IMG/VR virus record: IMGVR_UViG_3300047510_001496
Coordinates: 1 to 37,795 of that record
Source of the DNA: a virus
Length of the DNA stretch: 37,795 nucleotides
Strand: one strand, 5' to 3'
Below the pieces are notes generated by a model. That model worked only from the letters and a program-made list of their open reading frames with translations, made no database searches and was not told the DNA's origin. Positions within the stretch are counted from its first letter, which is position 1, and each line of letters begins with the position of its first letter. Shown here piece after piece: positions 3,611-36,993 of this stretch. The position numbers and the translations under genes were made by a program.

Positions 3611-5065
3611 ATGTCTAATGTCAAACCAGCCCCTGGTTTTATCGACAAAGGCCGCGCCGCTCAACTTTTAGAGAAATGGGCTCCTGTTCTTGATTACTCA
3701 AGTGACAAAGTCCGTCCTATCGAAGACGAGCACGCTCGCGTTACCACAGCCATGCTGATGGAAAACCAAGAGCGTTGGTGCTTAGAAGAATCTGGAAACT
3801 TCGCCGGTAACGGTGGATCTTTCGGATCAGGTTCATCTATTGGTGGTGTTTATACACCCCCAGGCAACATCACATCACGTGACACATACGCAACAGGTGA
3901 TGCACGCTTACCAAAGGTTTTAATACCAATGATTCGTCGTACATTCCCTGAGCTAATCACGAATGAGATCGTCGGTGTCCAACCAATGAGTGGCCCTGTA
4001 GGTTTGGCCTTTGCATTACGTTATCGCTATGAGACAGACAGCCTTGGTGGCACAGGTGTTGACGGTTATAATTCACTCGGACCCGTAAATTACGGCAAAG
4101 ACAATCTTATACCTCGTCAAAACAATGGCGCCGAACTAGGTTATCAAACACTCGATACACGCTTCACAGGTACTAGCGCATCAGCACTTTCCGGTAACAG
4201 TGACTTCCAAGTCATTGGTAACGACCAAGGTGTTGCAGCTATCCTCAGCCAATTCGAGTTAACTGGAAACATTCCTCAAGTAACAGTTGAGTTCAGCAAA
4301 ACAGCAGTTGAAGCCGGCACACGCCGTCTCGCAGCTCGTTGGAGCGTTGAACTCGAGCAAGACTTGAAGAACATGAACGGTCTCGACATCGATTCTGAAT
4401 TAACAAACGCCATGAGCTATGAAATTCAGGCCGAAATCGACCGCGAAATGGTCATCAGAATGATCCAAGTCGCTCTCAATGCAGGTTCCGTAAACGGATA
4501 TAGCTTCTGGCACGCCGCATCAGCTGACGCACGTTGGCTCGGTGAGCGTAACCGTGACTTCTATAGCAAGGTAATTGTTGAGGCTAATCGCATCGCAATT
4601 CGTAACCGCCGTGGCAGCGCTAATTTCATTATCGCTACACCACGCGTTTGCGCAATCCTTGAGATGTTACCAGAGTTTCAATGGATGCCTGTAAACGGCA
4701 ACATCAACACACAACCAACCGGCATCGCCAAAGTTGGTACACTTGGTGGTCGTTTCACAGTCTACCGCGACACTCGTACAGATGCTCAATATCTCGCAGG
4801 CCAACGCTCAACAGCGTTAGAGTATGCTCTCTTGGGTTACAAAGGCACAGAGTACTACGATACAGGTATCGTATACTGCCCTTACATCCCTGTCATGATT
4901 CAGCGTACAATCGGTCCTAACGACTTCAGCCCACGTGTTGGTCTGATGACCCGTTATGGTGTCGTAGATTACATCTTCGGCGCTTCATTGTACTACCACG
5001 TAATCATCGTCAGCGGTCTAGGTACAGCCAATGTTGCTCAAGACAACGGCAGACTCTATCTGTAA
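3611..5065 (+). CDS. 23: Major capsid protein, T4 gp23-like
   Basis: 484 residues (T4: 521), HK97-fold major capsid protein. Aligned blocks with T4 gp23: an early LLEKWAP, MIRRTFPELITNEIVGVQPM then GPVGLAFALR (about 114-146), RWSVELEQDLKNMNGLD, the downstream ANFIIATPRVC, LGGRFTVYRD, and GYKGTEYYDTGIVYCPYIP. Residues 49-60 contain LME and LEE, which fit the (L/I)xE cleavage rule of the prohead protease. Cleavage after E60 would match the T4 site (E65), removing an N-terminal delta domain. Codon use is visibly different from its neighbours, with many C/G-ending codons (CGC, GTC, ATC, CTC), as expected for the most abundant virion protein. It has a strong ribosome binding site and is followed by a terminator. 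Confidence 0.96.
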   Translation: MSNVKPAPGFIDKGRAAQLLEKWAPVLDYSSDKVRPIEDEHARVTTAMLMENQERWCLEESGNFAGNGGSFGSGSSIGGVYTPPGNITSRDTYATGDARLPKVLIPMIRRTFPELITNEIVGVQPMSGPVGLAFALRYRYETDSLGGTGVDGYNSLGPVNYGKDNLIPRQNNGAELGYQTLDTRFTGTSASALSGNSDFQVIGNDQGVAAILSQFELTGNIPQVTVEFSKTAVEAGTRRLAARWSVELEQDLKNMNGLDIDSELTNAMSYEIQAEIDREMVIRMIQVALNAGSVNGYSFWHAASADARWLGERNRDFYSKVIVEANRIAIRNRRGSANFIIATPRVCAILEMLPEFQWMPVNGNINTQPTGIAKVGTLGGRFTVYRDTRTDAQYLAGQRSTALEYALLGYKGTEYYDTGIVYCPYIPVMIQRTIGPNDFSPRVGLMTRYGVVDYIFGASLYYHVIIVSGLGTANVAQDNGRLYL

Positions 5066-9333: not shown

Positions 9334-9348
9334 ATATAGTATGTTAGA

Positions 9349-9363
9349 CCTAAATATTTATCC
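9349..9363. promoter_or_regulatory. Palindromic bidirectional late-type promoter
   Basis: The core TAAATATTTA (9351-9360) is a perfect palindrome. Plus strand: CCTAAATA (9349-9356), expected start near 9362, 6 nt before the ATG at 9368. Minus strand: GATAAATA (9362-9355), expected start near 9349, about 16 nt before the ATG at 9333. It therefore serves both divergent genes and places the upstream ATG at 9341 outside the late transcript. Confidence 0.6.
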
Positions 9364-9367
9364 GGAT

Positions 9368-9877
9368 ATGGCAACAATTTACATAGATAATTTAGTAAAA
9401 CCGCGTCAAACGAATTCTCCATACAATTTTCCAGCTAAAGAAACCCCATTAGAAGACAACATTTATGCTGATTTACATTTAGATTTAAAGCTTAAACGCA
9501 AATTGGGTGTAGGAGACGAACCGGCTAATTCATCAGATATAATATCAGATACAGATACAGACGCTATAAGAAATTCTTTATATAATTTGTTTACAACAAG
9601 ACCTGGGCAAAAATTATTAACACCAGCGTTTGGTTCTAATTTAGAACAATTTTTATTTGAGTCTGTTAATGAATTGAATGCCAGAGTCATAGGTGATACG
9701 ATCTACACATCCATAAGAAGATTTGAACCTAGAGTAGAAGTTTTAAAAGTACAAGTAACACCTAATCCAGATGAAAATTTGTATAGAGTGTTATTTGTCT
9801 ATAAGTTATTAAATATGGGTGAAAACCAAACGTTTTCTATCCAAATAGAATCTAATAATAATATAACAATTGTATGA
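9368..9877 (+). CDS. 25: Baseplate wedge subunit, T4 gp25-like
   Basis: 169 residues from ATG 9368 (178 if the ATG at 9341 is used). I chose 9368 because 9341 lies upstream of the late-type promoter and because MATIYIDN is a more natural start than MLDLNIYPD. The gp25/lysozyme-like wedge signature is clear: DAIRNSLYNLFTTRPGQK, LTPAFGSNLEQFLFE, TIYTSIRRFEPRVEV with the conserved EPR, and NLYRVLFVYKL. gp25 is the conserved core of contractile-tail baseplates (T4 gp25, TssE in T6SS) and joins gp6, gp7 and gp53 in each wedge. Its stop overlaps the gp6 start by four bases (ATGA). Confidence 0.92.
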   Translation: MATIYIDNLVKPRQTNSPYNFPAKETPLEDNIYADLHLDLKLKRKLGVGDEPANSSDIISDTDTDAIRNSLYNLFTTRPGQKLLTPAFGSNLEQFLFESVNELNARVIGDTIYTSIRRFEPRVEVLKVQVTPNPDENLYRVLFVYKLLNMGENQTFSIQIESNNNITIV

Positions 9878-11679
9878 GCCAATATATAGTAGAAACAAAT
9901 AAAAATTCTTACGTAACTTTTGACCCAATTAGTTTAAGGGACGTAATAATTAACCGTCTTAATCAAGGTCAGGTGTTCACAGACCAAAATTACCAAGGCT
10001 CAAACCTATCTGCTTTGATAGATATTATAAGTTATACATTTAGTACACTTTTATTTTATTTAAACAAAACCTCATCTGAGAGTATGTTTTCAGAAGCTCA
10101 AATCTATGAAAACATGAACCGCATTGTTAAACTTTTAAATTACAAACCTATAGGAAGACTAACTCAAAATGTTGGATTTGGATTAACCGCTTCTGGCAAT
10201 TTACTTGCTGGTAATTATGCAATACCTCGTTACAGTTATGTTACAATAGGTGGAACAAACTATTCTATTAATCAAGATGTCTCATTTACCAAGAATGTAG
10301 ATGAGGAAGAAGTTATAACCAGCTTATCAAACAATTACTTGATTTATCAAGGAGCGTTTGAAGAATATCCTACATACGTAGCAGCTGGTATAGAAAATGA
10401 AGTCATATATTTAACATTACCAGACAACACCCAAATAGACCATTTTAATATTTTTGTATATGTTAAACCACAAAACGCAGCTAAGTGGGAAAGGTGGAAT
10501 ATAGTTTCTGATCTTTTTCTTACCAAAAGTAATGATAAAGTTTATGAAACACGTTTTAATGAAAACAAAAGATATGAGGTTTTATTTGGTGATGGTATAA
10601 ACGGTAAAAAATTAAATGAAAGCGATCAAGTTGCTATATATTATCTGCACATTAATCCAACAGCAGGACCTTTAGGAAGCAATGCTTTAGATAACGCTGT
10701 AGTAGTACCTTTTAATTCTTTAAGATTTAATGAAATATTAGATGATACCTTAGAATCTTTTGGAGCTTATTTATCACCCCAACAAATGGGTTTTATAAGA
10801 TTTTCAAACCCATATCCGTCAACTGAATATGTCCCAGAAGAAAACGTAGATTCTCTACGTAAAAATGCACCACAAAAATTCCGTTCTCAATTTCGTTTGG
10901 TAACAGTTCAAGATTATGAAGCATATTTTAGAACCAATTTTGGTAGTTTTATAGCAGACGTTAAAGTAGTGGATAATGATTCATATTTAAATAATCATTT
11001 AAAATATTTGTATAATATAGGTTTAAAAAATCCTCAAACACAAAATCAAATTTTATATAATCAAATTAAATTTGCAAATAGTTGCAATTTTAACAATTTA
11101 TATGTATACAGTGTTCCACAAAGCGAAAATCAATTGTACCTGTCTCCTCCTCAAAAAGAAATAATTTTAGATCGCATACAAGAAGTCAAAACTATAACTT
11201 CTCAAATTGTAAACATGGACCCAGTTTACATGAATTTAGCTTTTTACGTTCAAGCACCAAACCAAAAACCAACCATAGCTGACATAGAAGCCAGTAAATT
11301 ATTAGTAACTAAAGAGTTAACCACAAGAAGATCAGACTCTTCAATTATATCAGAAGTTGCATCGGTTATAAGAAACAATTTCAATCGTAAAGTTTCTAGA
11401 TTAGGCCAAAAAATAGATTTATATCAATTAGCAGCAGATATATTACAAATCGACGGAGTCAATAGTATTCAAACTTATAGATCAGACTATCAAGTTTATA
11501 ATAACGGTATAACATTGTTGATATGGAATAACACATATCCAGATCAAGACGTTGAGACATATTCTCAAAATATTCAATTTGAAAATTTTAAATATCCTAT
11601 TTTCTACGATATAAACAATTTAGAAGAATATATTCAAATAAACACTCAACAACCTTCGATAAAAGCCGTTGAATTTTAA
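9874..11679 (+). CDS. 6: Baseplate wedge protein, T4 gp6-like
   Basis: 601 residues (T4 gp6: 660). Baseplate_J/gp6-type protein: an N-terminal part with LSALIDIISYTFSTLLFYLNKTSSE, where the early 'D.I...F..' helix and long hydrophobic stretches match gp6 homologues, a central beta region with YEVLFGDGINGKKL (the recurrent FGDG of the J family), and a C-terminal part beginning FRSQFRLVTVQDYEAYFRTNFG followed by VYMNLAFYVQAP. gp6 dimers form the inner ring of the T4 baseplate and hold the wedges together. It is translationally coupled to gp25 upstream. The next gene starts 13 bases after its stop. Confidence 0.88.
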   Translation: MSQYIVETNKNSYVTFDPISLRDVIINRLNQGQVFTDQNYQGSNLSALIDIISYTFSTLLFYLNKTSSESMFSEAQIYENMNRIVKLLNYKPIGRLTQNVGFGLTASGNLLAGNYAIPRYSYVTIGGTNYSINQDVSFTKNVDEEEVITSLSNNYLIYQGAFEEYPTYVAAGIENEVIYLTLPDNTQIDHFNIFVYVKPQNAAKWERWNIVSDLFLTKSNDKVYETRFNENKRYEVLFGDGINGKKLNESDQVAIYYLHINPTAGPLGSNALDNAVVVPFNSLRFNEILDDTLESFGAYLSPQQMGFIRFSNPYPSTEYVPEENVDSLRKNAPQKFRSQFRLVTVQDYEAYFRTNFGSFIADVKVVDNDSYLNNHLKYLYNIGLKNPQTQNQILYNQIKFANSCNFNNLYVYSVPQSENQLYLSPPQKEIILDRIQEVKTITSQIVNMDPVYMNLAFYVQAPNQKPTIADIEASKLLVTKELTTRRSDSSIISEVASVIRNNFNRKVSRLGQKIDLYQLAADILQIDGVNSIQTYRSDYQVYNNGITLLIWNNTYPDQDVETYSQNIQFENFKYPIFYDINNLEEYIQINTQQPSIKAVEF

Positions 11680-11692
11680 TTTCTTATAAGCC

Positions 11693-14600
11693 ATGCAAGT
11701 CAGTTTCACGGTTAATAAATTTCAAGGTTATGCCGGAGCAACAGAATTTACTTTTAATTCTACTCCAGTACCGGCTGTTAATGAAACTGTCCAAAGCATT
11801 TTATGGGATTTTGGTGACGGTACGTACAGCCAGGTAGAAGATCCAGCTCACATTTATTATTATCCGGGAATTTATAAAGTTACTTGTAATGTCTATGGTA
11901 AAACCACAACTGGAACTTCTACATTAGCTCAATATACGAGTTCTTTAAGAGTTAATTTATATGTAAACGAATCAATTTATTTTGATTACGTGCCACCACC
12001 AACTTTTGCTAGCCACTATAATAGATATCCCTTTAGGGTACACATAACTTCACCTTATTTAGGTGATCATTATGTAGATTTAGGTGCTCAATACTCTCGC
12101 AGTTATCAACATCAAGATCCGCAAAATAAGTGGTCATTTTTAAGACCAGAATGGAAATTTTTAGACTTAAATGGGAATATAATTCAAAGTGTCAAAACTA
12201 CAGACACTCCTATAAAAGTTAATAAGGAAGGGCAGATAGATCCTAACGGAGCAGTAGTTGGTGTATCTGGATATGCAGAATTTTATTTTATTGATGATAT
12301 ATTTAATTTTGATTTAGCTGTTAACCAGCAACCTTATACAACTATATTAGCAACATTACAAACTAGTGCCACTAGAGGTTTTAATGACGGATTTAATACA
12401 GATAAAGATTTGCCAGGATTTGCAAATAGTTTAGCAGAAGCAATATGCCCTTATATATCACTTTGGAGACCTCCCCAATATCTAAGAATAACAGAAAACG
12501 GGTTAAGAGAATATGCAAATCCTAGATGGGTAGGAGCTAAAAATCCTATAATAATATATTCTGCTTATAAAGGAAGTGATTATCCGGATGAATGGATAGA
12601 CGGCAATGGAGTTAAATTATACAACCCAGAAAGCAACTTCTCTCACAATTTTCCTTTAACCAATGATAAGGCAGTTAATTTATCTGTAACTCTAACTGGT
12701 GTAAGTTCATTTTTTGTACCATCCTCGACTGTCATTTTATGGACAGACGGAACTGGATATAAAGTTCCTGGTTATTATAAAGGACATTTTGAAACTTCAA
12801 ATCCATCTTCTTCTCAATTTGCAATTATTACAGCCGGTTGTTTTATACCAACGCCAGATATATCAGCAAATTATATTAATCCAGTTTTATGGTTATCTAA
12901 CCCAGAAGCCGGTATGGTCGCTACAGTTCAATATCAATTTCAAACCAGTTTAAGTGACATATCAACCCGCAATTTAAATTTAGCACAAGTCCATGCTTTT
13001 GATGCTCCTATTATACTAGAACCAGATTTTTCTAAAGATCCTATGTCTTTATCTGGATTCCACGGAATCAATAGCATAGCAGCATTACCAGCTCCTCATT
13101 TTCATGCGTGGGCAAGTGATGGTGAAATGAACATGCTATATAGATTTGCAACTACTGGGCATATTTTATGTGCTGTAGATATTAATAATATAGTTAGAGA
13201 AAATGGTCTTGGATTTGCCTCACAAAATCAAGTATCACCCGCATCAATAGCTTTAGACGGTAATCGAAATATTTGGATGACGTTGTATGATACAGTTTCA
13301 GTTCTTAAATTCGATCCAGCAGGCAATTTTCTTTTCGCAGCACATCCTCTTAACACTATTGGATATGCTCTACCATCTGGAGCAAATATGTTACCTTCTA
13401 TGGAAGAATTTAGCAGATTTGATCAAGAGTCTTATTTTTATGATGCCACAGAAGAAGACGTTAACCTAATAGAACCTACCTGTATAGAAACTGACATATA
13501 CGATAATGTATGGGTTACCTATTCAAACACTTATAGTGGATTTTTAATAAAGTATAATACAAATGGTGTTTTACAATTCTATTACAACTACCCAATTCAA
13601 TATCATCCACAAGATATAATTTCAGATAGAGATGGCAATGTTTGGGTTGCAGTGTCTCACATTTCTTACGGAGATAGAGGAACTATAGAAAAAAGAGACA
13701 CAACAGGAAATGTTATAAGTTCTTTTGGACCTTTTAGATCACCCAATAATATTACATTAGATGTATCTCAAAATTTATGGTTTACCCAAAGCTATAACTG
13801 GATAGGTCGTATTAATAATAGGAATAGTACAGTTAGATCTTTACAACTATCTGGTAATAGATGGGATATCAACTCAAATATACCAGATTGGATATATCCA
13901 GCTGATAACACAGACGAAACTGCATTTGAAGGTATAGCGTCTGATATAAGAAATAAAATATATGTTCTCAATTCTGTTGAGAATCAAATGTATGTTGTAA
14001 ATGCTAATACTTTTGCTTTTGAAAATAGATTTTACATAAACCCTCAAGGATTTACATATTTCTTAAATGATCAATACGAATCTACTCAAGTAGGATATAA
14101 CGTATGGAGTAAATCATTACAGGCTCAAGGTGATTGGTCCGGATGGAGATGGGTTAATAAATATGGTCCGACTAAATTGCCACAATATACTTTAACAAAT
14201 ACATCAACCTTTTATCTAACCGGTGAATCTAATTGGTTAACTTTTAATACTTCTAATCCTTATGATATATTTAAAGTTAATGAAGACCATGACCTACCAG
14301 ATCAAATGTATAAAATGGCTTTTATGCCTTCTTTGATTGATAGCCCATTTTTGTTTAATACATTTTTAGGTTCCATTTTCGGAAAATATCCATTTGAACA
14401 CGATGATTTGGGTGTTGAGAGTTATGAAAAGATTGCCAATTTTGTCGAAAATCAAACAGATTTAGATTATTGTAATATAGATCAATTATATAGTTTAGCT
14501 GAACAAGTTGATTTAGATACAGATGATTTTATTCTTAAATATCCTCCAGCTATTAAACGATTAATGGATTTAGCAAGCGTTAATCAATCTCGATTATGGG

Positions 14601-15028
14601 GTGGTCGTTTGTTAAATCAAAACAATTTTGCAGTTCCAAGCGATAAGGGAGTCTTAAACAGAGGAGAACCTCTTACAACAGCAACATATTTCGTTTCTGC
14701 AGGCACTCCTGTTATATTAAAAACTAAATCTTTAAATTCTTATAAATACATTCCTACAGGTTTAATATACGGATTATCTGGGTATAGTTTAAATATGTTA
14801 GCGACTTCCATTGGTTTAGATCCTATTACATGGGATCAGTATTATGAATTTTATTCATTTATACCAGGTTCAGATAATACACAAATTGAAGGGATCATTG
14901 ATTGGGATAACCCACAAACTACATTAAACGAGACCTTATCATCAGAACACGAATGGCTTGGCGAAGAAAAAGTTTTAGAGACCATGTTTTCTTATTATCT
15001 ATATAAGGGACTTGGTTTATTAGAATGA
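11693..15028 (+). CDS. Large baseplate wedge-like protein with PKD and beta-propeller domains
   Basis: 1111 residues, similar in size and place to T4 gp7 (1032), directly after gp6. Residues 1-95 are a PKD domain with the classical WDFGDG (38-43) followed by a YYYPGIYKV strand. About 457-800 carries NHL/Vgb-like propeller blades with recurring 'N.wv...D..v.KfD..G' units such as NIWMTLYDTVSVLKFDPAG and NVWVAVSH. GDWSGW (813-818) then closes the propeller, and a matching GDFSGY is found in the protein at 31853. The C-terminal 240 residues (FLFNTFLGSIFGKYPFEHDD, YEKIANFVENQTDLDYC, then LWGG) look like a baseplate attachment domain. I infer a wedge protein that has gained surface-exposed modules. 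The gp7 equivalence is positional. No late box is seen, so it is probably cotranscribed with 25-6. Confidence 0.65.
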   Translation: MQVSFTVNKFQGYAGATEFTFNSTPVPAVNETVQSILWDFGDGTYSQVEDPAHIYYYPGIYKVTCNVYGKTTTGTSTLAQYTSSLRVNLYVNESIYFDYVPPPTFASHYNRYPFRVHITSPYLGDHYVDLGAQYSRSYQHQDPQNKWSFLRPEWKFLDLNGNIIQSVKTTDTPIKVNKEGQIDPNGAVVGVSGYAEFYFIDDIFNFDLAVNQQPYTTILATLQTSATRGFNDGFNTDKDLPGFANSLAEAICPYISLWRPPQYLRITENGLREYANPRWVGAKNPIIIYSAYKGSDYPDEWIDGNGVKLYNPESNFSHNFPLTNDKAVNLSVTLTGVSSFFVPSSTVILWTDGTGYKVPGYYKGHFETSNPSSSQFAIITAGCFIPTPDISANYINPVLWLSNPEAGMVATVQYQFQTSLSDISTRNLNLAQVHAFDAPIILEPDFSKDPMSLSGFHGINSIAALPAPHFHAWASDGEMNMLYRFATTGHILCAVDINNIVRENGLGFASQNQVSPASIALDGNRNIWMTLYDTVSVLKFDPAGNFLFAAHPLNTIGYALPSGANMLPSMEEFSRFDQESYFYDATEEDVNLIEPTCIETDIYDNVWVTYSNTYSGFLIKYNTNGVLQFYYNYPIQYHPQDIISDRDGNVWVAVSHISYGDRGTIEKRDTTGNVISSFGPFRSPNNITLDVSQNLWFTQSYNWIGRINNRNSTVRSLQLSGNRWDINSNIPDWIYPADNTDETAFEGIASDIRNKIYVLNSVENQMYVVNANTFAFENRFYINPQGFTYFLNDQYESTQVGYNVWSKSLQAQGDWSGWRWVNKYGPTKLPQYTLTNTSTFYLTGESNWLTFNTSNPYDIFKVNEDHDLPDQMYKMAFMPSLIDSPFLFNTFLGSIFGKYPFEHDDLGVESYEKIANFVENQTDLDYCNIDQLYSLAEQVDLDTDDFILKYPPAIKRLMDLASVNQSRLWGGRLLNQNNFAVPSDKGVLNRGEPLTTATYFVSAGTPVILKTKSLNSYKYIPTGLIYGLSGYSLNMLATSIGLDPITWDQYYEFYSFIPGSDNTQIEGIIDWDNPQTTLNETLSSEHEWLGEEKVLETMFSYYLYKGLGLLE

Positions 15029-15789
15029 AATTTTTACAAGTTCAATTAACCCCTAATAAAACAACCAGAGCTGGAAACTATCCTTTAATAGTTAGCAATG
15101 ACCCTGCTCAGTGTTCTATAGATACTTTTACTCAAGAAAGTTTAATAACCCCTGATAATATTTTTATAGATTTAGCAAATAATGGGGTATTACAAATCCC
15201 ACCAGATGAACTTGAAGAAATACCTTGCGTTGGATGTTCCTGTTGTGAAGAACCCACTTCAGACGATCCTTCAACAGTAGAATATTACGGTTACTGGTCT
15301 AGTCCTACCTCTTGTGCTTGTGTAGCAGCCGGAGCATCTTGTAACCCTTTTAAAGTTACTACAGCTGGAGGAGTTGTTAAAAACGGCTATAAATGTGTTT
15401 TGACAAATGAACCCCTTACAAACGTTCAATGTTATACTTCAAGTTTTGCCAGCGGATTACAAGCATGTGGTGTTATTTCAATTCCATGTCCTACAACATG
15501 CACACCAGATAAATGGAATTTTATAGGTAGTAAAATATTTGTTAATATATTTGGTTCTCAGGCTTTGGCATCGGTTGTTGGTGGTGCAGATGATGATGCA
15601 AGACTAACCCGTGGAGACGGAACTACAAGATGGTTTAGATCCGGATTACCCGATCGTCCAGCATGCCAAGCTGGTAATATCAATTATCAATTTATAGCAG
15701 AACCAAATGAAATTTTTCTTATAGAAGGATATGATACATTCGGTGGTAATGGCGGTTTAAACATATGTGTCACTTTTACTCAATTATAA
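15025..15789 (+). CDS. Cysteine-rich virion protein of unknown function
   Basis: 254 residues, not recognised. About 15 cysteines are seen, clustered at CVGCSCCEE (near 72-80) and SCACVAAGASC, with further C..C pairs (PCPTTC) and single Cys spread to the end. The N-terminus (about 1-60) is a plain beta-like stretch, and the C-terminal third is Gly/Asp-rich with RGDGTTRWFRSGLPDRPACQ. There is no signal peptide, so disulfides would form only outside the cell or after lysis. Metal binding, or disulfide locking of a surface knob, are both possible. The start overlaps the previous stop (ATGA), so it is translated with the wedge-like protein and could be its partner. Confidence 0.6.
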   Translation: MKFLQVQLTPNKTTRAGNYPLIVSNDPAQCSIDTFTQESLITPDNIFIDLANNGVLQIPPDELEEIPCVGCSCCEEPTSDDPSTVEYYGYWSSPTSCACVAAGASCNPFKVTTAGGVVKNGYKCVLTNEPLTNVQCYTSSFASGLQACGVISIPCPTTCTPDKWNFIGSKIFVNIFGSQALASVVGGADDDARLTRGDGTTRWFRSGLPDRPACQAGNINYQFIAEPNEIFLIEGYDTFGGNGGLNICVTFTQL

Positions 15790-15824: not shown

Positions 15825-18800
15825 ATGGCATCTTCCACAGAAAGTAACGTTCCTTTGAATTTTAATCAATGGTCTGCCCGACAATTAGCAATAATACCCG
15901 GTTCAGAACAAAGAGAATATTCTAGATATTTAATAGATTGGTATAAGAACAAATCTACAGAAAAATCTAGAAATCAAGACGCCATCAAACAAGACTATGT
16001 TCAATTAGTTAAAGATTTAAGCTTTTTATTCGGTCAAGCAGAGAAAGATCGTTTTCTAGCAGATGTAGATTATACAAACGAAGAAGAATTGATATTTTCT
16101 GTACCGTTTTTTGCTCGCAAATTAAAAGAAATATCAAAAGTTTTATCGGCTAAAAGGGAAGCAATTAAACAAGCTAAAATCAAATATAATTTAATAGGTT
16201 CTAATCAAGGTTTAGAAACTCTTTTATACGAATACATGCTAAAGGGGTTTACAAAAAGAGAAGGCACCATAACCCAAGTACCAGCACTTCCTATTCAAAA
16301 TATATTTCCAGAACTTTCTGCTATTAAAGATAACTTTTATATAGAAATTGAAGAATTGCACGACCCCTCAACTTACCATGATTCTGATCCTTCTGTAGAT
16401 ATACAAAATTATGTATCCTTAGAAGATGTTTTAAATGCACCTCCCTTCGACGACCCTAATTTAACAGATGAAGAAGTCTTAAATTTATTAACTTCTAGAT
16501 TTTTGCCTAGAGTAGCGCCTACTCCATTGTCTAAAGTATTTTTCGATTATCTATCAGCGTTAAACACAAATGACATTTTTTCTATAATTGATACATATGG
16601 TGCAACTCAAACCATTACAAATGAAATAGTTGGTACAGAAAAATATCTAGGAGAAACTGTTTACGGGTTAACTGCTATAAGATTAAGAGAAATTTCTACA
16701 GCAGATCAGGTTTTATCTTTAGATTTACAAGATGGAAACAATTGGTTCTATTGGCCAAGCGGTACTCAAATAGTAGAGCCTTATAACTTTAACAATTATT
16801 TTCAACCTATATTAATAAATGATTCTAATTTCATATCAAGCAGTGCAACTGGTGGTACAGATTTTAGCAACTCTGATCTTATTTTTACAGACAAAAGTGG
16901 AGTTGTTGAAGGTGCATGGTTGAAAGGAGTTACGGAAGAAAATTCAAAAACACAAATACAAATAACATTACCTGGTGGTACTACAAAAGAATTCATGTTT
17001 CCTTTTGTAGGATTCAGATTATCTACAAGAGGATTTGGTTGGGATGGTTATGCCTTTAACGATAGTTATTTGCAACAATTTAATTTACTACCTTATTCTC
17101 AACAAAAACAATTATTAGAAACCTATTATACTACCAATTTACCTAATTCAGCTGCATATCCAGTTTATTTAAATCAAACTCAATTAAGAAGATTAGGCTT
17201 TTCTAACATATTTTTTGATCAAGCAGATAATATTTTAAAACAAGGTAAAAGAAGTGATATTCCAGACGTATACAGCGATGCTTTAAACGACCCTACAGAA
17301 CAAGCGTATTTGTATAGATTTATAAGAACGGACATTCCCATAGAAACTGGAGCAAATAGTATTTTATGGCCTATATCAAAAATAGCAGAAGACGGTAATT
17401 TACCTATAACTGTAACAGAAAATGATAATTTACCAACTAGACTATCAGAACACGATCCTTCTATAGCAATGTTGGGTGCAGTTGGTGGTTTATCGTTTAG
17501 CACTTCAGATGTTATATATCGTTTAGATTCAAGATCTGGTGATGAAATAGAAGCTGCGTGGTTACGTGCAGGTGATGTATCTTTCTTAGATTCAACTAAA
17601 AATACTATAGAAGTATATAATACATCGGCTGTAGAATGTGCTGTTCCTATAACTGGTCCAGTTCAATTAGGATTACATTTTAGAGTCGAGAGTGGTACTA
17701 AAATGTCTTTTGTTTGGTGTGGACCTGACACATACGCAGATGAAGTAATATATGCATATTCTCATAGTGCTGATTGTCCGTATACAAAAAACGGTCCACA
17801 TAATTATTATAGAAACCAAGACTTTAGCAACCCAGGACCCTTAAACTCAACATTACAGTATGAAAAATGTAATTGCCGAGCTGTTAAATACTCGCCTATA
17901 GGCCATGCAGGTTCTGTCTTTACAGATTACAATGGAATGGCGGATGTTATATTTGCAGACCCTCAAGGATTAGGGAATGAATTTGCAGTAAACTCATGGA
18001 GAGACACTAGAGGATTTAATGTTTACAACAGTCCTCAGTTTGCATTTTTCCAATTAGCAAAAAAACCAAGTTCTCAATATGGTGAACTTATAGGACAACC
18101 TTCTCTTAACTTTCCTACCAATGAGAAAGATATTAGATGGGTACAACCCCCAGGTACAGAAGAATTTGTTGATTATGATGATGACGGTATAGATGATAGA
18201 TACCAAAGATATCCTGGTGATAAAGGAGAAGGAGAATTTAAATTCTATTCAGACGAAGAGGTAGGATGGGGTCCTGGTAAATGGTTAACTAGCGCAGGAA
18301 CGCGTATGGTTTTAAAAACTGGCAGAAGATATACATATTATAGAACTTCTTTACGTAAAGGATCAAACACAGCTCCTTACTTGGTTGTAAAATATCCTTA
18401 TAAAGAAATCAATTCTTTATTATGTGATGGTGCTTGTTCTGATATAGTATTTGTTTTAGATGCTAGCTTATCTCAAACATATGTTTTTGAAACTGTTAAA
18501 AACATTGTTAAACAAATTTATAATGTTTTATTACAAAACGCTCAACATCAATTAGGTTTAGTTGCTTTCAATCAAGACGCAACAACAATTTCATATTTGT
18601 CTCAAGATGCATTTGCTTTGAGATTATTAACATCCTTATTATCTCCTTCCGGCAAAACTAATATTACAGATGGATTGTTATTGGCTGAAGCAATTTTAAC
18701 AACAAGAATACCGGAAGAATCTATTGAAAATAATGATTTATTCGCTTTATGTCGCCAATTAAACGTAACCATAGCAAGTTGTGGTGCTGGCTCTGTTACT

Positions 18801-21116
18801 GTTAATGAACCTCGCAATTCTTGTAGAAAACGTATTATCATATTCAGTGATGGCGAGGCAAATATAGAACAAGATTCTGTTATCACAACAGCTAACAGAG
18901 TAAAAAATAATGGAATAGAAATTATTTCAATAGATATAGGCACATTAGGGTTATTCAATAATAACATGGAAGAAATTGCAACTAACTCTGACCTTTATTT
19001 TAATCTACAGCAATATCTTTTAAACAATGACGGAGACGACAATTCTTTTGCAAACTTTATAGCCCAACTTATTTCAGATTGCCCTCCAATTAAACCAACT
19101 TGGTGTAAGGCTATAAAAGGTTCTACTGGTGAGTGGATAGAGACCAATGAAGTTTCTGATATGATCCTATATCCCGGAGATTATTTAAGTTATACTCACC
19201 AAGGAGGAGTTTTTTATACAAGCCCAGTAGACTCTTCCACAAATTTTAATCAAACCGGTATAGATTTTACAATTAATGTAAAACTCAATGGATGGGATTA
19301 TACAACAAACACATTTTATGCATCTGCATACGGTTCTAGATTTGGATCAAAACCTTTTTGGGGAACCGCATATAATGTATACGACGAAGACAATAGTTAC
19401 TATAAAGAATCTATGGCATTCGGTGGTCATATAAGATTCTTTAATGATTATGTACCAGTTAAACAACCAGAAATTTCTCCATTAGTGTTAGAGAACGGAA
19501 ATTTAATAAAATATACTAATAGGTCGCCAAATAACTTAAATTGGCAAGAATACATAGACATCAAAATTACAGATACAGAACGTAGATGGAATAAAATTGA
19601 GTTTTATAAAGATGTTTCCAATTTAGCAAATTTATTAAAAGTAAACAATCTTGATGTTATAGCATATCCATCAATGGAACCAAGCACCTTAACATTAGAA
19701 AGTTATTCTCAATTTAAACCAGCTTACTATAACTACTTTGCACAAAATAGTTTTAAATTTAATCAAGATTTATTTTATGCCGATAGGTGTGAAAATAGTT
19801 TTGTAATTTTTAATTCCGCGGTTATCATTAATCCTTTAACACCTTCTGCCAATTTAGACAATAGATTTTATCCAACTATAGCATCTATATCATATCCCCA
19901 TTTAGCTGTAAGTGAAAGGCAGGTAGGGGAATATATGGTACCAGATACTTTAGGAACTCCAACTTGGAGAGGCAGAGGATATAAAAACTTTATAGACCCA
20001 AATCGTGTATCTATTTTAGAAGCTGCAAGTGCGGAAGAAGTGTTTTTAGACCTCAACAAATACAGTAGTAGAAATAGAGGATTAACTAAAAAAGACCAAC
20101 TATCACCAATTACAACTTATAATATAAGCAATGATTGGATTGCAGAACCTTATAGTGCTTGCGGAAAAGCCGGTGTTATATTAGGTACCAAAGAAAACCA
20201 AAAATTCACACCTTATCAAACTAGTTACGAAATTTTAAATAAAAATTATTACGGAATAACTAGACAAGAAGATTCTTTTGAATTCTGGACACCAGCCAAT
20301 CCAGCAACTTGGAATGAACCTGTCAAATATCCTTTAACTTTTAGAAAAGAATTAGAAGCAGCAACTTATAAAAATCGCATAGACAATTTATTGGTTAATA
20401 AAGGAAAAATGTCCCAATGGAAAACTGATATTTTTGGATATGATTACGGATTATTTAAAAAGTCAGACAGAAATGATCCGTTTTTTAATGATGTAGTATT
20501 ACTACTTCCTATGAACGCTAATTTTCAAGATTTTTCAAAAAGCGCAAATAGTATATCGATTTTTGGCACACCTTCAATAGTTCCATTTTCTCAACGCCCA
20601 GATAATGGAGGATACTTTGATAGCAGCGGAGATTACTTGTCAATTAGTGATACACCAAATTTGGGACTCGGGACTCAAAACTTTACCATAGAAATGTGGA
20701 TATTTAAATCAACAGCACTAGTAAACTGGAATGGTATATTTGAGCTTGGTACTGGTATAAATCCTTATCAAAACGGGTTAATGCTCAGACTACAATCAAC
20801 TACAACAGATTCATTGTACATAGCAAATGTTGCTTATAACTGGTCTCCTTCTTCCAACTTCCCATTAAACCAGTGGAACCATTTAGCTCTGGTAAGAAAT
20901 GGTAATAGTTTCACAGTATATGTAAACGGTAATAGTGTACTCAGTGTAACTAACAGCGCCAATTTAGGTTCAACATCACGAATAACTATAGGTGCAAGCG
21001 CACATTCAACAACTCAGGGGTTAGATGGTTTTATAGACGATTTTAGAATCACAAAAGGAATTGCAAGGTATACGACAAACTTTACCCCACCAACAAACCA
21101 ATTCCCAACTTCATAA
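15825..21116 (+). CDS. 1763-residue structural protein with vWA and LamG domains
   Basis: A giant protein, not matched to a single T4 gene. The N-terminal 150 residues are helical (SARQLAIIPGSEQREYSRYL and following) and may be the particle-binding part. Residues 783-794 (DYDDDGIDDRYQ) resemble a thrombospondin type-3 calcium loop. About 873-1060 is a von Willebrand A domain: DIVFVLDASLS with MIDAS D879-S881-S883, GKTNITDGL with T945, and IIIFSDGEAN with D1009, then a strand IEIISIDIG. VSDMILYPGDYLSY (from 1110) recurs in the protein at 31853. Residues 1556-1763 are a Laminin-G-like domain ending DGFIDDFRITKGIARYTTN, nearly the same as the end of the protein at 31825. I infer a baseplate- or tail-tip-anchored adhesin with metal-dependent and sugar- or protein-binding modules. 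Confidence 0.75.
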   Translation: MASSTESNVPLNFNQWSARQLAIIPGSEQREYSRYLIDWYKNKSTEKSRNQDAIKQDYVQLVKDLSFLFGQAEKDRFLADVDYTNEEELIFSVPFFARKLKEISKVLSAKREAIKQAKIKYNLIGSNQGLETLLYEYMLKGFTKREGTITQVPALPIQNIFPELSAIKDNFYIEIEELHDPSTYHDSDPSVDIQNYVSLEDVLNAPPFDDPNLTDEEVLNLLTSRFLPRVAPTPLSKVFFDYLSALNTNDIFSIIDTYGATQTITNEIVGTEKYLGETVYGLTAIRLREISTADQVLSLDLQDGNNWFYWPSGTQIVEPYNFNNYFQPILINDSNFISSSATGGTDFSNSDLIFTDKSGVVEGAWLKGVTEENSKTQIQITLPGGTTKEFMFPFVGFRLSTRGFGWDGYAFNDSYLQQFNLLPYSQQKQLLETYYTTNLPNSAAYPVYLNQTQLRRLGFSNIFFDQADNILKQGKRSDIPDVYSDALNDPTEQAYLYRFIRTDIPIETGANSILWPISKIAEDGNLPITVTENDNLPTRLSEHDPSIAMLGAVGGLSFSTSDVIYRLDSRSGDEIEAAWLRAGDVSFLDSTKNTIEVYNTSAVECAVPITGPVQLGLHFRVESGTKMSFVWCGPDTYADEVIYAYSHSADCPYTKNGPHNYYRNQDFSNPGPLNSTLQYEKCNCRAVKYSPIGHAGSVFTDYNGMADVIFADPQGLGNEFAVNSWRDTRGFNVYNSPQFAFFQLAKKPSSQYGELIGQPSLNFPTNEKDIRWVQPPGTEEFVDYDDDGIDDRYQRYPGDKGEGEFKFYSDEEVGWGPGKWLTSAGTRMVLKTGRRYTYYRTSLRKGSNTAPYLVVKYPYKEINSLLCDGACSDIVFVLDASLSQTYVFETVKNIVKQIYNVLLQNAQHQLGLVAFNQDATTISYLSQDAFALRLLTSLLSPSGKTNITDGLLLAEAILTTRIPEESIENNDLFALCRQLNVTIASCGAGSVTVNEPRNSCRKRIIIFSDGEANIEQDSVITTANRVKNNGIEIISIDIGTLGLFNNNMEEIATNSDLYFNLQQYLLNNDGDDNSFANFIAQLISDCPPIKPTWCKAIKGSTGEWIETNEVSDMILYPGDYLSYTHQGGVFYTSPVDSSTNFNQTGIDFTINVKLNGWDYTTNTFYASAYGSRFGSKPFWGTAYNVYDEDNSYYKESMAFGGHIRFFNDYVPVKQPEISPLVLENGNLIKYTNRSPNNLNWQEYIDIKITDTERRWNKIEFYKDVSNLANLLKVNNLDVIAYPSMEPSTLTLESYSQFKPAYYNYFAQNSFKFNQDLFYADRCENSFVIFNSAVIINPLTPSANLDNRFYPTIASISYPHLAVSERQVGEYMVPDTLGTPTWRGRGYKNFIDPNRVSILEAASAEEVFLDLNKYSSRNRGLTKKDQLSPITTYNISNDWIAEPYSACGKAGVILGTKENQKFTPYQTSYEILNKNYYGITRQEDSFEFWTPANPATWNEPVKYPLTFRKELEAATYKNRIDNLLVNKGKMSQWKTDIFGYDYGLFKKSDRNDPFFNDVVLLLPMNANFQDFSKSANSISIFGTPSIVPFSQRPDNGGYFDSSGDYLSISDTPNLGLGTQNFTIEMWIFKSTALVNWNGIFELGTGINPYQNGLMLRLQSTTTDSLYIANVAYNWSPSSNFPLNQWNHLALVRNGNSFTVYVNGNSVLSVTNSANLGSTSRITIGASAHSTTQGLDGFIDDFRITKGIARYTTNFTPPTNQFPTS

Positions 21117-27041: not shown

Positions 27042-29675
27042 ATGAGCAATAGATTTCACAGTAAATGGCATCGTAGGAATCACCACACCTACACAAATCC
27101 AACTAATCCAGATGCAGGGCATGACCCTATAGCCAGCCAACAGCAACCTTTTCTAGGAGAATTTGTTTTATTTGGCACTTTAAGTTGCTGGGCTCCGTTA
27201 AGTTCTTATGCTGGAGGTTTCTTTTCTAATAACACTTCTCTCTGCGCTATAGCAGGTTATCGCGGTTTATTTGTTCAAGCCCCAAGAGTTGGTATGGAAA
27301 TTAAATCTAATTCCTTAGCAATTTCTGCATATTCCGAAAGACTTGGAATGAGTATAGATGCTTCTATCGGCACAACAGGCAGAGCAATTTCTGCAACCGC
27401 TTCAAATATAGGTTTAGACATTTGGTCGAATAATGTAGCCATTTCCGCGCAAGGTAATAGAATTGCTATAGAAGCAGAATCTATAGTTAGAGCGATTTCT
27501 GCTTATGGTGGATTTATAGGAGGAGAGTTTGCTTCTGCTAGTAGGGCAATATCTGCATATTCTCCTTATATTGCTGGAGAATTTGGTTCTGCTAGTACAG
27601 CGATCTCTGCTCAAGGCTCTAGAGTAGGTATTGAGGTTTATTCTAGAAATGATGGAATATCAGCATATGGTGGCAACGTTGGTATAGAAGTATATTCTCC
27701 TTTTAGAGCAATATCTGCATTTGGTGATACAGTTGCTTTAGAAGCATATTCTTACCGAACTGCAATTTCTGCGTTTAGTAATACTCTAGGAGCTTACATA
27801 TACAGTTCTCTTACAGGCACTTATGTTGAAGGTATGTCAGCTGGTGCCATGATTAGCAGCCCTATGGTTTCTCTTTCAACTGGAGGAGGTGGGTATAACG
27901 TCCTTAATAGTAGAACTGGTATCTATTGTATTCCAATGGAGAAGGATGTAGTAGGTACTCCATTTACACCAGTTTTAGCAGTTAATGGTAACTCATATTT
28001 CGATGGTGGAGTTACAATTACCGGAGATTTATCAACTCTTGGAAGAATGTCTTATTTAGATACCAAAGTCGTTATCACTAGTTCTCTTTACATTGAGAAC
28101 AAAGGTACAGATGCGGCTGCAACTGTTATACAAGAAGGTGCTCAACCAATTTTAGTATGTTATGATAAAGATGTAAGTCTTGGAATAGCCTCGTTTATTG
28201 TAGATGGTGCGACCAGTGGTAATGTAGGTATCAACACAACTCAAGCTCAATTAGTTAATAGTGCAAAATTATCTATTATAGGAAATGTGGCAACCAATGG
28301 TAAAGCATTAAGTGCTGTAGGTGAAATGTGGGTTGAAGGAGAAGTAGATCTTAACGTAACTGGTAATAGTAATACCAACGTTAATACAACAACTCCTTCG
28401 ACTACCGTAACAGTCGGTCAAGATGGTGCAACTCCTACAAATATAAACGTCAACGGTAATACCACAGTTTTAGGTACAACCCAAGTTAATAGAACCGGTA
28501 GTAAAAATACAAGTATAGGCAACGCATCCAGCACAACAACAATTGATGGACCTACCAATGTTAATACTTCGATTAATAGTAACACTAACATCAATACAGG
28601 AACTTCAACAGGTACTACAACTATTGGCAATGCATTAGCAACAGTTGTGGTCGCTGGCGATACCTCCATCAATGCTAGTATTGCAGATAACACTAATATC
28701 AATACAGGATCTTCAACGGGTACTGCAACTATTGGTAATGCGTCTGCTACAGTAGTCGTAGCCGGTGATACTTCCATCAACGCTAGTATTGCAGACAACA
28801 CCAACATTAATACCGGAAGTTCTACAGGTACTGTAACTATTGGTAATGCAGCCGCAACAGTAGTCGTAGCCGGTGATACTTCCATCAACGCTAGTGTTGC
28901 AGACAACACCAACATTAATACTGGAACATCAACAGGTGCAATTTCGATCGGCAATAGTTCAGCAGGTGCTATAACAGCAACAACCGGTTCTACAGCAACA
29001 ATTACAACTGGAAGTACTTTAAATATTAACTCCACTACAGGTCGTATAACTAATATCAACTCAGGCACCGGTGCAACAACTAATATCAACACCGGCACTG
29101 GAGCAGTTACAACAACCATAGGAAATAACACAGCTTCAAACTTAACAACCATAAGCAGTCCAAGTGTAACTGCACCAAATCAAACTTATGTAGATAGTAG
29201 TTCAGTTATTACAGGTTCCTTAGGAGATACTCGATACGGTAATATAGTAGACCAAGCATTAACAGCCAACTCTGCTGCAGATTCAGATAACACATTTACA
29301 GCAATAGCGACAATTACCTTAGAAGCAAATACAACATATGAGATCAACTCTATAGCAGTAATATCAACAACAACAACCGGAGGTTCTAAGGTTCAGTATG
29401 GATATAGTGGTGCTACAGCAGTAGTTGCTATATCTGAACAATATTATTCTTCAGCAGCAACGACTACTAATAGTGTAACCTATCAAGGAACTACTCTACC
29501 AGTCAACGCAACATCGCAAACTAGCGCAGCAGCTGCAACCCATACATACACACGAAAAGGCATTATAAGAACAAGTACAGCAGGTAATTTAACCTTAGAA
29601 ACCGCTTTAAATAGCGTAGCAGGAACTGCAACAACCTTAGCCGGATCTTATATATTAGCTAGAAAAATAGCTTAA
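27042..29675 (+). CDS. Long repetitive tail-fibre-like protein, 18-residue period
   Basis: 877 residues. Residues about 93-255 hold nine units that begin (A/G)ISA followed by a G/A/V-rich strand and '.E.YS', spaced by 18 residues (the first interval is 22). About 260-450 is an intervening domain with YFDGGVTITGDLSTLG and GNVGINTT, common in phage fibres. About 505-640 is a second repeat array of 36 residues (two 18-residue halves: TNINTGSSTGTATIGNAS and ATVVVAGDTSINASIADN). The last 130 residues are a Thr/Ser-rich beta domain with EANTTYEINSIAVIS and GSYILARKIA at the end. The pattern fits a triangular beta-helix or trimeric beta-fibre whose C-terminal domain may be the tip. No chaperone gene follows. 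The N-terminus (HSKWHRRNHHTYTNPTN) is basic and may bind the baseplate. The ATG at 27042 has only a weak GAG-type ribosome site. Confidence 0.8.
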   Translation: MSNRFHSKWHRRNHHTYTNPTNPDAGHDPIASQQQPFLGEFVLFGTLSCWAPLSSYAGGFFSNNTSLCAIAGYRGLFVQAPRVGMEIKSNSLAISAYSERLGMSIDASIGTTGRAISATASNIGLDIWSNNVAISAQGNRIAIEAESIVRAISAYGGFIGGEFASASRAISAYSPYIAGEFGSASTAISAQGSRVGIEVYSRNDGISAYGGNVGIEVYSPFRAISAFGDTVALEAYSYRTAISAFSNTLGAYIYSSLTGTYVEGMSAGAMISSPMVSLSTGGGGYNVLNSRTGIYCIPMEKDVVGTPFTPVLAVNGNSYFDGGVTITGDLSTLGRMSYLDTKVVITSSLYIENKGTDAAATVIQEGAQPILVCYDKDVSLGIASFIVDGATSGNVGINTTQAQLVNSAKLSIIGNVATNGKALSAVGEMWVEGEVDLNVTGNSNTNVNTTTPSTTVTVGQDGATPTNINVNGNTTVLGTTQVNRTGSKNTSIGNASSTTTIDGPTNVNTSINSNTNINTGTSTGTTTIGNALATVVVAGDTSINASIADNTNINTGSSTGTATIGNASATVVVAGDTSINASIADNTNINTGSSTGTVTIGNAAATVVVAGDTSINASVADNTNINTGTSTGAISIGNSSAGAITATTGSTATITTGSTLNINSTTGRITNINSGTGATTNINTGTGAVTTTIGNNTASNLTTISSPSVTAPNQTYVDSSSVITGSLGDTRYGNIVDQALTANSAADSDNTFTAIATITLEANTTYEINSIAVISTTTTGGSKVQYGYSGATAVVAISEQYYSSAATTTNSVTYQGTTLPVNATSQTSAAAATHTYTRKGIIRTSTAGNLTLETALNSVAGTATTLAGSYILARKIA
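27318..27815 (+). repeat. 54-bp-period repeats (18 residues) in the fibre gene
   Basis: Nine degenerate units each starting with codons for (A/G)ISA. The protein period is 18 residues from the second unit on. DNA identity is low, so this array is older than the 108-bp repeats. Confidence 0.75.
28560..28970 (+). repeat. 108-bp tandem repeats in the fibre gene
   Basis: Homologous positions recur at 28653, 28761 and 28869, exactly 108 bases apart, with a degenerate first copy from about 28560 and a partial last copy to about 28970. The copies starting at 28761 and 28869 are nearly identical over long stretches. 108 bp encodes 36 residues, so gain or loss of units keeps the frame and changes fibre length. 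Confidence 0.85.
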
Positions 29676-30394: not shown

Positions 30395-31825
30395 ATGTTA
30401 ACTTATAACGATTTACAATCAAACGGAGAGATTTGGATGCGAGCACCTAATGGTGAAAGATATCCAGCTAATCAGGTACTATCTTCAATTTATATAAAAT
30501 ATGATACAGTATCAGAAACTTTTTATAATGATTTGACTAGTAACAGTGTATCTAATTTTGATGTTATATATGATACTTTACACATAACAACAACCGCAGG
30601 AAGTATTTTTGAAAAAATATACGCTGAAAATGGACAATTGCTCCCCCACAACCAATCTAATTTATTCCACCCCATATGTTCTAGCCCTTTAGATTATTGG
30701 TTTTCTGAAAGTAAAAATAAAATATATTACACAGACATCATAGACGTCTATAAAGGATATACTTCATATTCAAACTTATCAGCCCTTCAATTCTTTTTGA
30801 CCTTTAACATATTTGATTGTACTCAAGGCATTACAACCTATAAATCAGCTTATCAAATAACTTTACAACCCAAAACCGGAGCAGATTGGCGTAATAATTT
30901 ATATACTATAGAGACTCCTAAAATTACATATAACCCAGATACATATATTTTTAATATATCATTTTTAATAAAGAATGATAAAAATTTACCAGGCATTGTT
31001 AGTTTAAATTTAAAAGACAATGAAAATTATGATATAATCGAATGCAATACTTGTTTGCCGTATTTTAATACTTCAACTACAGAAAGTAAAGCAGAAAAGA
31101 TATCCTATGAAGAGATACCGTTGGTTTTACGACCACCCGCAGATCCGTATTTCAATAATAATATTTTACTATTACACATGGACGGAGTAAGTGGTTCTAG
31201 ATTGTTTATAGACAATTCACCAACAAATGCTCAAATGCTCACAGCTGGGTTTGTTATGATAGACACCGCAAGATTCAGATACGGCAACGCCTCCGCATTT
31301 TTTAATAGATCTGCTACAACTTCTTTAAGAACCTCAGCAATACCATCAGTATTCAATTTAGGAACCGGCGATTTTACAATAGAAGGATGGTTCTTTTTTA
31401 GAGAAAATAATATAGGATATCAACCTCTTATGTCTTCATACGTAGCCGGAGATCAAACCGGATGGTTACTAACAACAGAAGTTAATCATTTCTTAAATTT
31501 TTACAGTGCTTCGAACACTACATGGAACAACACTGTAGCATCTACAACAAGACCAACACTCAGCACATGGACACATATTGCTGTAACAAGACAAAACGGA
31601 ACTATAAACATTTATACTAGTGGTATTAATGTTACAACAACCAGGACAGGTGGTTCAAATCCGGTAAGATTAGGCAATTTCGTAGCTATAGGTCATTATC
31701 CTTTTTATCCGGCACCTGCAGTCAGAACATTTGACGGGTATATAGATGATATTAGAATTACGAAAGGCGTAGCAAGATACACGACAAACTTTACCCCACC
31801 AACTTACGCTTTTAGTGACTATTAA
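30395..31825 (+). CDS. LamG-domain virion protein
   Basis: 476 residues. Residues 1-250 are not recognised (beta-rich, with a few Cys such as IIECNTCLPYF). Residues 254-476 are a Laminin-G/ConA-like domain: NNNILLLHMDGVSGSRLFID, FTIEGWFFF, WTHIAVTRQNG, then DGYIDDIRITKGVARYTTN. This half is a close relative of the C-terminus of the protein at 15825, including a 23-base stretch of identical DNA (around 31781 and 21073). LamG domains in phages are thought to bind glycans or surface proteins. Start ATG is 2 bases after the previous stop. Confidence 0.75.
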   Translation: MLTYNDLQSNGEIWMRAPNGERYPANQVLSSIYIKYDTVSETFYNDLTSNSVSNFDVIYDTLHITTTAGSIFEKIYAENGQLLPHNQSNLFHPICSSPLDYWFSESKNKIYYTDIIDVYKGYTSYSNLSALQFFLTFNIFDCTQGITTYKSAYQITLQPKTGADWRNNLYTIETPKITYNPDTYIFNISFLIKNDKNLPGIVSLNLKDNENYDIIECNTCLPYFNTSTTESKAEKISYEEIPLVLRPPADPYFNNNILLLHMDGVSGSRLFIDNSPTNAQMLTAGFVMIDTARFRYGNASAFFNRSATTSLRTSAIPSVFNLGTGDFTIEGWFFFRENNIGYQPLMSSYVAGDQTGWLLTTEVNHFLNFYSASNTTWNNTVASTTRPTLSTWTHIAVTRQNGTINIYTSGINVTTTRTGGSNPVRLGNFVAIGHYPFYPAPAVRTFDGYIDDIRITKGVARYTTNFTPPTYAFSDY

Positions 31826-36057: not shown

Positions 36058-36993
36058 ATGTCATACACCCTCAAACCTTTATTAAGTAGTGAAACAATTG
36101 GTGATTCTTTATCAGCAGTTAATAATAACTATTACAACCTAGACGTATGGACTAACAGCATTATCACTAGCGCGGTTATGATGTGGGAACCTTTAATAGA
36201 CTATTATAACTTCTATAAATCAGATTGGAATCAAATAGTAACATTAACTCGCAATAATAGTGCTAAATGGTTAAGCATGGTAACAACAGTTGAGGCAAAC
36301 AGTGCTAAATGGATTGAACCTATTACAATTTTTTATCCAGATTTTTTCCCAGATCCGTTTACATCCGAAAACGTTGTAACCGTTACTGAATTTTTAAAAA
36401 ATGCATTTCCTATATATCCAGGCGGAGGTGACTACCCTGGAGTTTATGGTCAAAGATTAAATTTACCACCAGGAACAATAGTAACACAAGATTTTATCGA
36501 TTCAGATGGTGATAGAATAGATGATAGAGAACAAAGATTTCCTGGAGATGATGGTACAAAACAATTTTCAGCAGCACCTGTGTATGTTGAAAATCAATTA
36601 GCAGTTGTATATGCAATGCCGTTTACTCAATCATTAAATGCGATTAATATTGAAACGTATTTGACAGACTTTACAATTTGTGTAACGAATCCTAGACGAG
36701 TTTGCGTAACTTGTTGGAATTATTATTCTGGAGGAGGGCCTTGTGGATGGGGATATGTTAATTGTCCTAGATATAGTAATTCTTGTAGCCAATGTAAAGA
36801 CGTACAATGTTGGTATAATAACCCACCATATATACCACAGCCAGCACCTGCTGGATTAAGCTACGGCCGAAGTAAAATAGATGCTAATGTAACAATGAGC
36901 TATTCAGAAAGAAGAGAATCTCTAAATATAATAGGAATTGTATACCGTATTAGAAATTGTACATGGCAATTTGAAAAATTTCTAACAGCATAA
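36058..36993 (+). CDS. Cys-rich virion protein, paralogue B, with TSP3-like loop
   Basis: 311 residues. It has the family N-terminus TIGDSLSAVNNNYYNLDVW and TVEANSAKWIEPITIFYP, parallel to its neighbours. An insertion after a Gly-rich turn has DSDGDRIDDREQRFPGDDG (from D148), like thrombospondin type-3 calcium loops and like DYDDDGIDDRYQRYPGDKG in the protein at 15825. A Cys-rich segment follows (about 226-272: CVTCWNYY, CGWGYVNCP, CSQCKDVQC). The end ANVTMSYSERRESLNIIGIV resembles that of paralogue A. It starts 7 bases after the previous stop (ATTAAAGT spacer). Confidence 0.65.
   Translation: MSYTLKPLLSSETIGDSLSAVNNNYYNLDVWTNSIITSAVMMWEPLIDYYNFYKSDWNQIVTLTRNNSAKWLSMVTTVEANSAKWIEPITIFYPDFFPDPFTSENVVTVTEFLKNAFPIYPGGGDYPGVYGQRLNLPPGTIVTQDFIDSDGDRIDDREQRFPGDDGTKQFSAAPVYVENQLAVVYAMPFTQSLNAINIETYLTDFTICVTNPRRVCVTCWNYYSGGGPCGWGYVNCPRYSNSCSQCKDVQCWYNNPPYIPQPAPAGLSYGRSKIDANVTMSYSERRESLNIIGIVYRIRNCTWQFEKFLTA

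Follow-up and report, generated by a model that had tools for sequence, protein, structure and literature searches.

A MIDAS-containing von Willebrand A domain in a large protein from the baseplate gene region of uncultured T4-superfamily phages

Among the closest described systems is gp164 of the Bacillus thuringiensis phage 0305phi8-36. This protein is encoded in the baseplate/fibre gene region and carries a central von Willebrand A (vWA) domain which is absent from the homologues of its relatives (PMC2147016). In extracellular contractile injection systems (eCIS), the tail fibres likewise bear VWA domains, which have been read as a target-binding module (PMC12923769). The vWA proteins found in ATV and in some jumbo phages have been proposed to act as adaptors for MoxR-type AAA+ chaperones (PMC7824862, PMC7911831). 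In the open-access literature we found no MIDAS vWA domain in a T4-superfamily baseplate protein.

Here, a stretch of viral DNA of 37,795 nucleotides (IMG/VR record IMGVR_UViG_3300047510_001496), called the window in the following, was analyzed. A vWA domain with a complete MIDAS had been proposed in a large phage structural protein by a first-pass annotation of this sequence. The protein concerned comprises 1763 aa, and its gene lies in the region of baseplate and tail genes of a phage of the T4 superfamily (Table 1).

Table 1. Features of the window and of the vWA-bearing protein.
Feature	Position (nt)	Strand	Basis or remark
gp23 major head protein	3611..5065	+	PHROG 138 at 3e-89, tblastn, tree; assigns the phage to the T4 superfamily
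gp25-like baseplate wedge	9341..9877	+	PHROG 261 at 7e-30
gp6-like baseplate wedge	9874..11679	+	PHROG 219 at 1e-33
1111-aa protein, PKD and beta-propeller-like matches	11693..15028	+	in clade B, homologues lie ahead of the scaffold gene
254-aa protein between 1111-aa gene and scaffold gene	15025..15789	+	
vWA-bearing scaffold protein, 1763 aa	15825..21116	+	uninterrupted open frame; full-length IMG/VR homologues collinear over residues 1-1545
Scaffold strands preceding the vWA insertion (YTYYRTSLR...PYLVVKYPYK)	18327..18404	+	conserved in clades A and B
vWA domain, residues ~872-1085	18438..19079	+	Pfam VWA/VWA_2, PDB profile search, AlphaFold2 and Foldseek
MIDAS motif D879-x-S881-x-S883	18459..18473	+	D879 and S881 invariant 31/31; position 883 S or T
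MIDAS T945	18657..18659	+	invariant 31/31
MIDAS D1009, then invariant G1010	18849..18851	+	invariant 31/31; large insertions here in L006 and L009
Scaffold strands following the vWA insertion (PTWCKAIKGSTGEWIE..SDMILYPGDYLSYTH)	19095..19199	+	conserved in clades A and B; in clade B they run on directly from the preceding strands
C-terminal LamG (concanavalin A-like) domain, residues 1599-1743	20619..21053	+	Pfam Laminin_G_3 3.6e-19; absent from shortest relatives

Fold and architecture of the 1763-aa protein

The fold of the central region was analyzed by profile searches and by structure prediction. Pfam VWA matched residues 873-956 with E=4.1e-12 (47 bits, cut-off 23.8), and VWA_2 was matched as well. 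Nucleotides 18807-19013, which encode the second half of this domain, gave an independent match with E=7.5e-7; the two halves match separately because a less conserved stretch (about residues 960-1000) lies between them. A profile built from 30 sequences retrieved collagen VI, Mfa5, integrin alpha2 I and CMG2 chains from the PDB. Whole-sequence E-values started at 1e-28, where repeated domains are summed; single domains went up to about 1e-5.

An AlphaFold2 model was calculated for residues 600-1300 together with 36 homologues (overall mean pLDDT 70, pTM 0.51). The pLDDT was mostly 80-94 across the vWA core and low in the 965-990 insertion. A Foldseek search with this model yielded 411 PDB chains at E<=1e-3. 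The top match was TEM8 (E=6.8e-12, TM-score by target length 0.78), followed by CMG2, BatB, integrin alpha1/alpha2 I, SpaC and Mfa5. Among predicted viral proteins the fold matches were mostly annotated vWA proteins, over vWA-sized stretches, and the scaffold itself was not among them. Residues ~872-1085 are a vWA domain, as had been claimed, and the five residues named as its MIDAS were found at the positions given for them, namely D879 (nt 18459), S881 (18465), S883 (18471), T945 (18657) and D1009 (18849). In the model the first vWA strand leads into the DxSxS motif, T945 stands ahead of a helix, and D1009 comes after the fourth strand. This predicted placement at strand ends and helix starts agrees with a canonical MIDAS. 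An antisense ORF in the vWA region (18602-18967, minus strand, 121 codons) is not conserved in relatives and is probably a chance frame.

Other parts of the protein vary. Beyond residue 1545 the relatives extend by 0 to about 530 aa, and the LamG end is replaced or missing in many of them. The C-terminal LamG module (window 20475-21104) is homologous to that of a 476-aa protein encoded at 31142-31813 (32% identity, 9e-17). A DxDxDGxxDxxxxxPGD segment, Ca-binding-like by appearance, occurs at residues 775-805 (18147-18239) and again in a 311-aa protein (36466-36567), with 56% identity over 34 aa between the two. In the vWA protein it lies within an insertion that the other clade-A members lack, and it points to recent copying of a module among tail genes. 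A SDMILYPG motif common to the vWA protein and a 1142-aa protein failed to hold as a domain match.

Relatives, MIDAS conservation and insertion site

Single-sequence searches with the vWA domain alone gave no matches in IMG/VR, INPHARED or the PDB. A search with the whole protein detected one relative in IMG/VR (L003, 38% identical), and profiles then retrieved 8 and 49 loci from this database. After removal of identical copies 40 proteins remained. Clade A comprises 31 full-length members including the window protein (30 without one near-copy), the others being 37-49% identical to the window protein. Eight proteins (L047, L048, L049, L050, L052, L055, L056 and L060; 24-28% identical) form the sister group, clade B. 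Outside LamG, no relative of the scaffold was found in PHROGs, the PDB or the cultured phages of INPHARED that would place it in a named baseplate or fibre family, and the reference prokaryote genomes contained no scaffold homologue.

Every full-length clade-A member carries the vWA domain with D-x-S-x-S/T, T and D at the MIDAS positions; none has lost or swapped it. Only 9 of 225 vWA columns are invariant in the 31 homologues, and four of the nine are D879, S881, T945 and D1009 (hypergeometric p=1.2e-6). On average, pairs of homologues are 34% identical in the vWA domain versus 46% in the rest of the protein on either side. The domain keeps its MIDAS but diverges faster than its scaffold, and selection has held the metal site under tighter constraint than the sequence around it. 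A degenerate domain, inherited as a mere passenger with a functionless MIDAS, would suit the faster divergence, but the MIDAS share of the invariant columns speaks against it; we dismiss this reading as highly improbable.

The clade-B proteins align collinearly with the scaffold, yet have no vWA domain. At the junction, strands ending in PYxIxKYxY are followed after a few residues by WxKA...GxW....SDMxLxPGDYxxYxH. In a tree of the scaffold minus the vWA domain both clades are split by one 100/100 branch; therefore a single gain or loss suffices. The vWA domain is accordingly a discrete insertion which was gained or lost once. The direction was not read from the gp23 tree because this tree is poorly resolved and has a very long outgroup branch.

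Two relatives, L006 (10001-16129) and L009 (9986-16147), contain an insertion of ~280-320 aa directly after the MIDAS Asp-Gly. It has very few Gly or Pro and is helix-like by composition. Such extensions next to the MIDAS would alter the reach of a binding face. L026, L028 and L029 have smaller insertions at this site.

Related genomes also encode other vWA-like proteins with a DxSxS motif, which are unrelated to the tail scaffold (L097:458-1870, 470 aa; L098:245-1507, 420 aa). The 420-aa protein has a long acidic stretch ahead of its vWA-like domain and is CobT-like by appearance.

Phage identity and gene neighbourhood

In addition to gp23, gp25 and gp6, the window encodes gp20, gp21, gp22 and a clamp loader. 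Gp23 was detected in 17 and gp25 in all of 20 related contigs (up to 248 kb). By these genes the phages belong to the T4 superfamily. Membership in the cyanophages (Kyanoviridae) was considered and rejected: gp23 separates from the cyanophage and T4 rows at 100/100, albeit in a poorly resolved tree, and 16 related contigs gave no Photo_RC match (psbA). Since psbA is not universal in cyanophages, the host may still be a cyanobacterium.

In clade B the gene order is gp25, gp6, a gene for ~1000 aa or more, and the scaffold gene. The window keeps this order with the 254-aa gene as one extra. In most clade-A contigs the scaffold gene lies away from gp25-gp6, in some beside fibre-like genes. Judged by its gene context, the scaffold likely has a role in the baseplate or a fibre. 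The N-terminal half gave a poor model (pLDDT 59) and an empty fold search; therefore no T4 counterpart can be named.

Two further genes deserve description. The gene after the vWA scaffold in one relative (L005:14937-17288) encodes a tail-fibre-like protein of 783 aa with collagen repeats (Pfam Collagen 1.9e-34). Collagen is a ligand of some animal vWA domains. In the window, positions 27042-29675 encode a repetitive protein of 877 aa with ISAYSxxxGxEVYS-like and NTGTSTGTxTIGN-like repeats. It is possibly a fibre and had no PHROG or Pfam match.

Proposed function and comparison with known systems

Adhesion to host or matrix, as suggested by the first-pass annotation, is plausible because the fold neighbours are largely adhesins and the vWA domain is a discrete insertion that diverges faster than its scaffold. 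We lean with moderate confidence towards a metal-dependent binding head on a baseplate or tail-fibre scaffold, most likely for a ligand on the host cell surface or of extracellular nature. In this model the large scaffold would belong to the baseplate or the tail fibres of an uncultured lineage of T4-superfamily phages, one branch of which carries the vWA domain between neighbouring scaffold strands. The domain would face outwards from the virion. The MIDAS would hold a divalent ion, and an acidic group on the partner would complete the coordination; the partner would most likely be a host ligand, either on the cell surface or extracellular. The binding-head reading is suggested by the adhesive nature of the closest fold neighbours (TEM8, CMG2, integrin I, SpaC and Mfa5), by a MIDAS kept in 31 of 31 sequences while the remaining vWA domain outpaces the scaffold in divergence, by the absence of this discrete insertion from clade B, by the gp25/gp6 synteny together with LamG or collagen-like neighbours, and by the helix-like sequence that some relatives have added next to the MIDAS. 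The universal retention of the vWA domain in clade A counts against this reading, because it resembles a structural part more than a fast-changing host-range cassette. The displaced position of the gene in most clade-A contigs also counts against it.

Alternatively, the MIDAS might make a contact inside the virion: an acidic residue on another tail or fibre protein would dock there and latch the two proteins together, and the site would play no part in host binding. That every clade-A member has the domain would be expected if it were a structural fixture, and the protein lies among other large tail-type proteins; both are consistent with this. On the other hand, the clade-B scaffold works without a vWA domain. 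Moreover, in the short flanks compared the clade-A neighbours differ widely, and no partner gene confined to clade A was identified. We regard such an internal contact as the strongest alternative, though rather unlikely.

The vWA domain could also serve as adaptor for a MoxR-type AAA+ chaperone during assembly. Viral MIDAS vWA proteins frequently have an AAA+ ATPase as partner (PMC7824862, PMC7911831), and a host chaperone could take the place of a phage-encoded one. However, no MoxR-class AAA_3 match above the cut-off was obtained in 20 related contigs, which may be incomplete. The AAA_5 matches were mostly ORFs of 312-337 aa located between gp23 and gp25, and in size and position they correspond to the clamp loader gene of the window. 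In addition, the vWA domain is built into the tail scaffold rather than adjoining an ATPase gene. An adaptor function is consequently quite improbable.

A secreted or intracellular phage product outside the virion would agree with the location of the gene away from gp25-gp6 in most clade-A contigs. Against this stand its place after gp25-gp6 and the 1111-aa-type gene, conserved in the sister group and the window, and the tail-type LamG and collagen-like neighbours, which make a non-virion protein very improbable.

The binding-head reading has wider implications. Phage adsorption has long been known to depend on divalent cations. To our knowledge, few protein metal sites behind this dependence are known, and the vWA MIDAS is a candidate for such a site. 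Natural scaffolds with and without the vWA domain in uncultured T4-superfamily phages offer a comparative test of a metal-dependent adhesion site in the tail.

Integrin alpha-I, TEM8 and CMG2 share the vWA fold with a DxSxS/T/D MIDAS and are the top fold matches, but the sequence identity in the fold alignments is about 15-21%. Integrin alpha-I sits inserted in a beta-propeller and is likewise a vWA domain mounted within another domain. This likeness implies neither a propeller fold of the phage scaffold nor an alpha7-type switch in its vWA domain. A mechanical sensor, which had also been suggested, is not supported; the sole hint is the position of the vWA domain between neighbouring scaffold strands, which resembles this integrin mounting. 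We consider it improbable that the domain serves throughout the lineage as an integrin-like receptor module of a T4-type baseplate, binding the host through a metal bridge and relaying this event to the baseplate as a conformational signal. The bacterial pilus-tip adhesins Mfa5 and SpaC, matched by profile and/or fold, likewise present a MIDAS vWA domain on a surface fibre. They belong to cellular pili, not to phage tails, and no shared scaffold was found.

Viral vWA proteins of the MoxR-vWA or CobS-CobT type (ATV, haloviruses, jumbo phages) also bring a MIDAS vWA domain into a virus. Theirs are AAA+-paired and lie outside a tail scaffold, whereas here no MoxR match passed the cut-off in the 20 related contigs. 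The eCIS fibres carry their VWA domain on a machine derived from a contractile tail, but they are separate fibre families and no scaffold homology is implied. Most similar is gp164 of 0305phi8-36, where the vWA domain is also central in a large protein of the phage tail region and a swapped module. That phage is unrelated and a single case, while the domain described here is shared by about 30 divergent members of a T4-superfamily lineage, with a conserved MIDAS, a defined insertion site and helix-like insertions by the MIDAS. Thus, the isolated 0305phi8-36 report is extended to a whole lineage.
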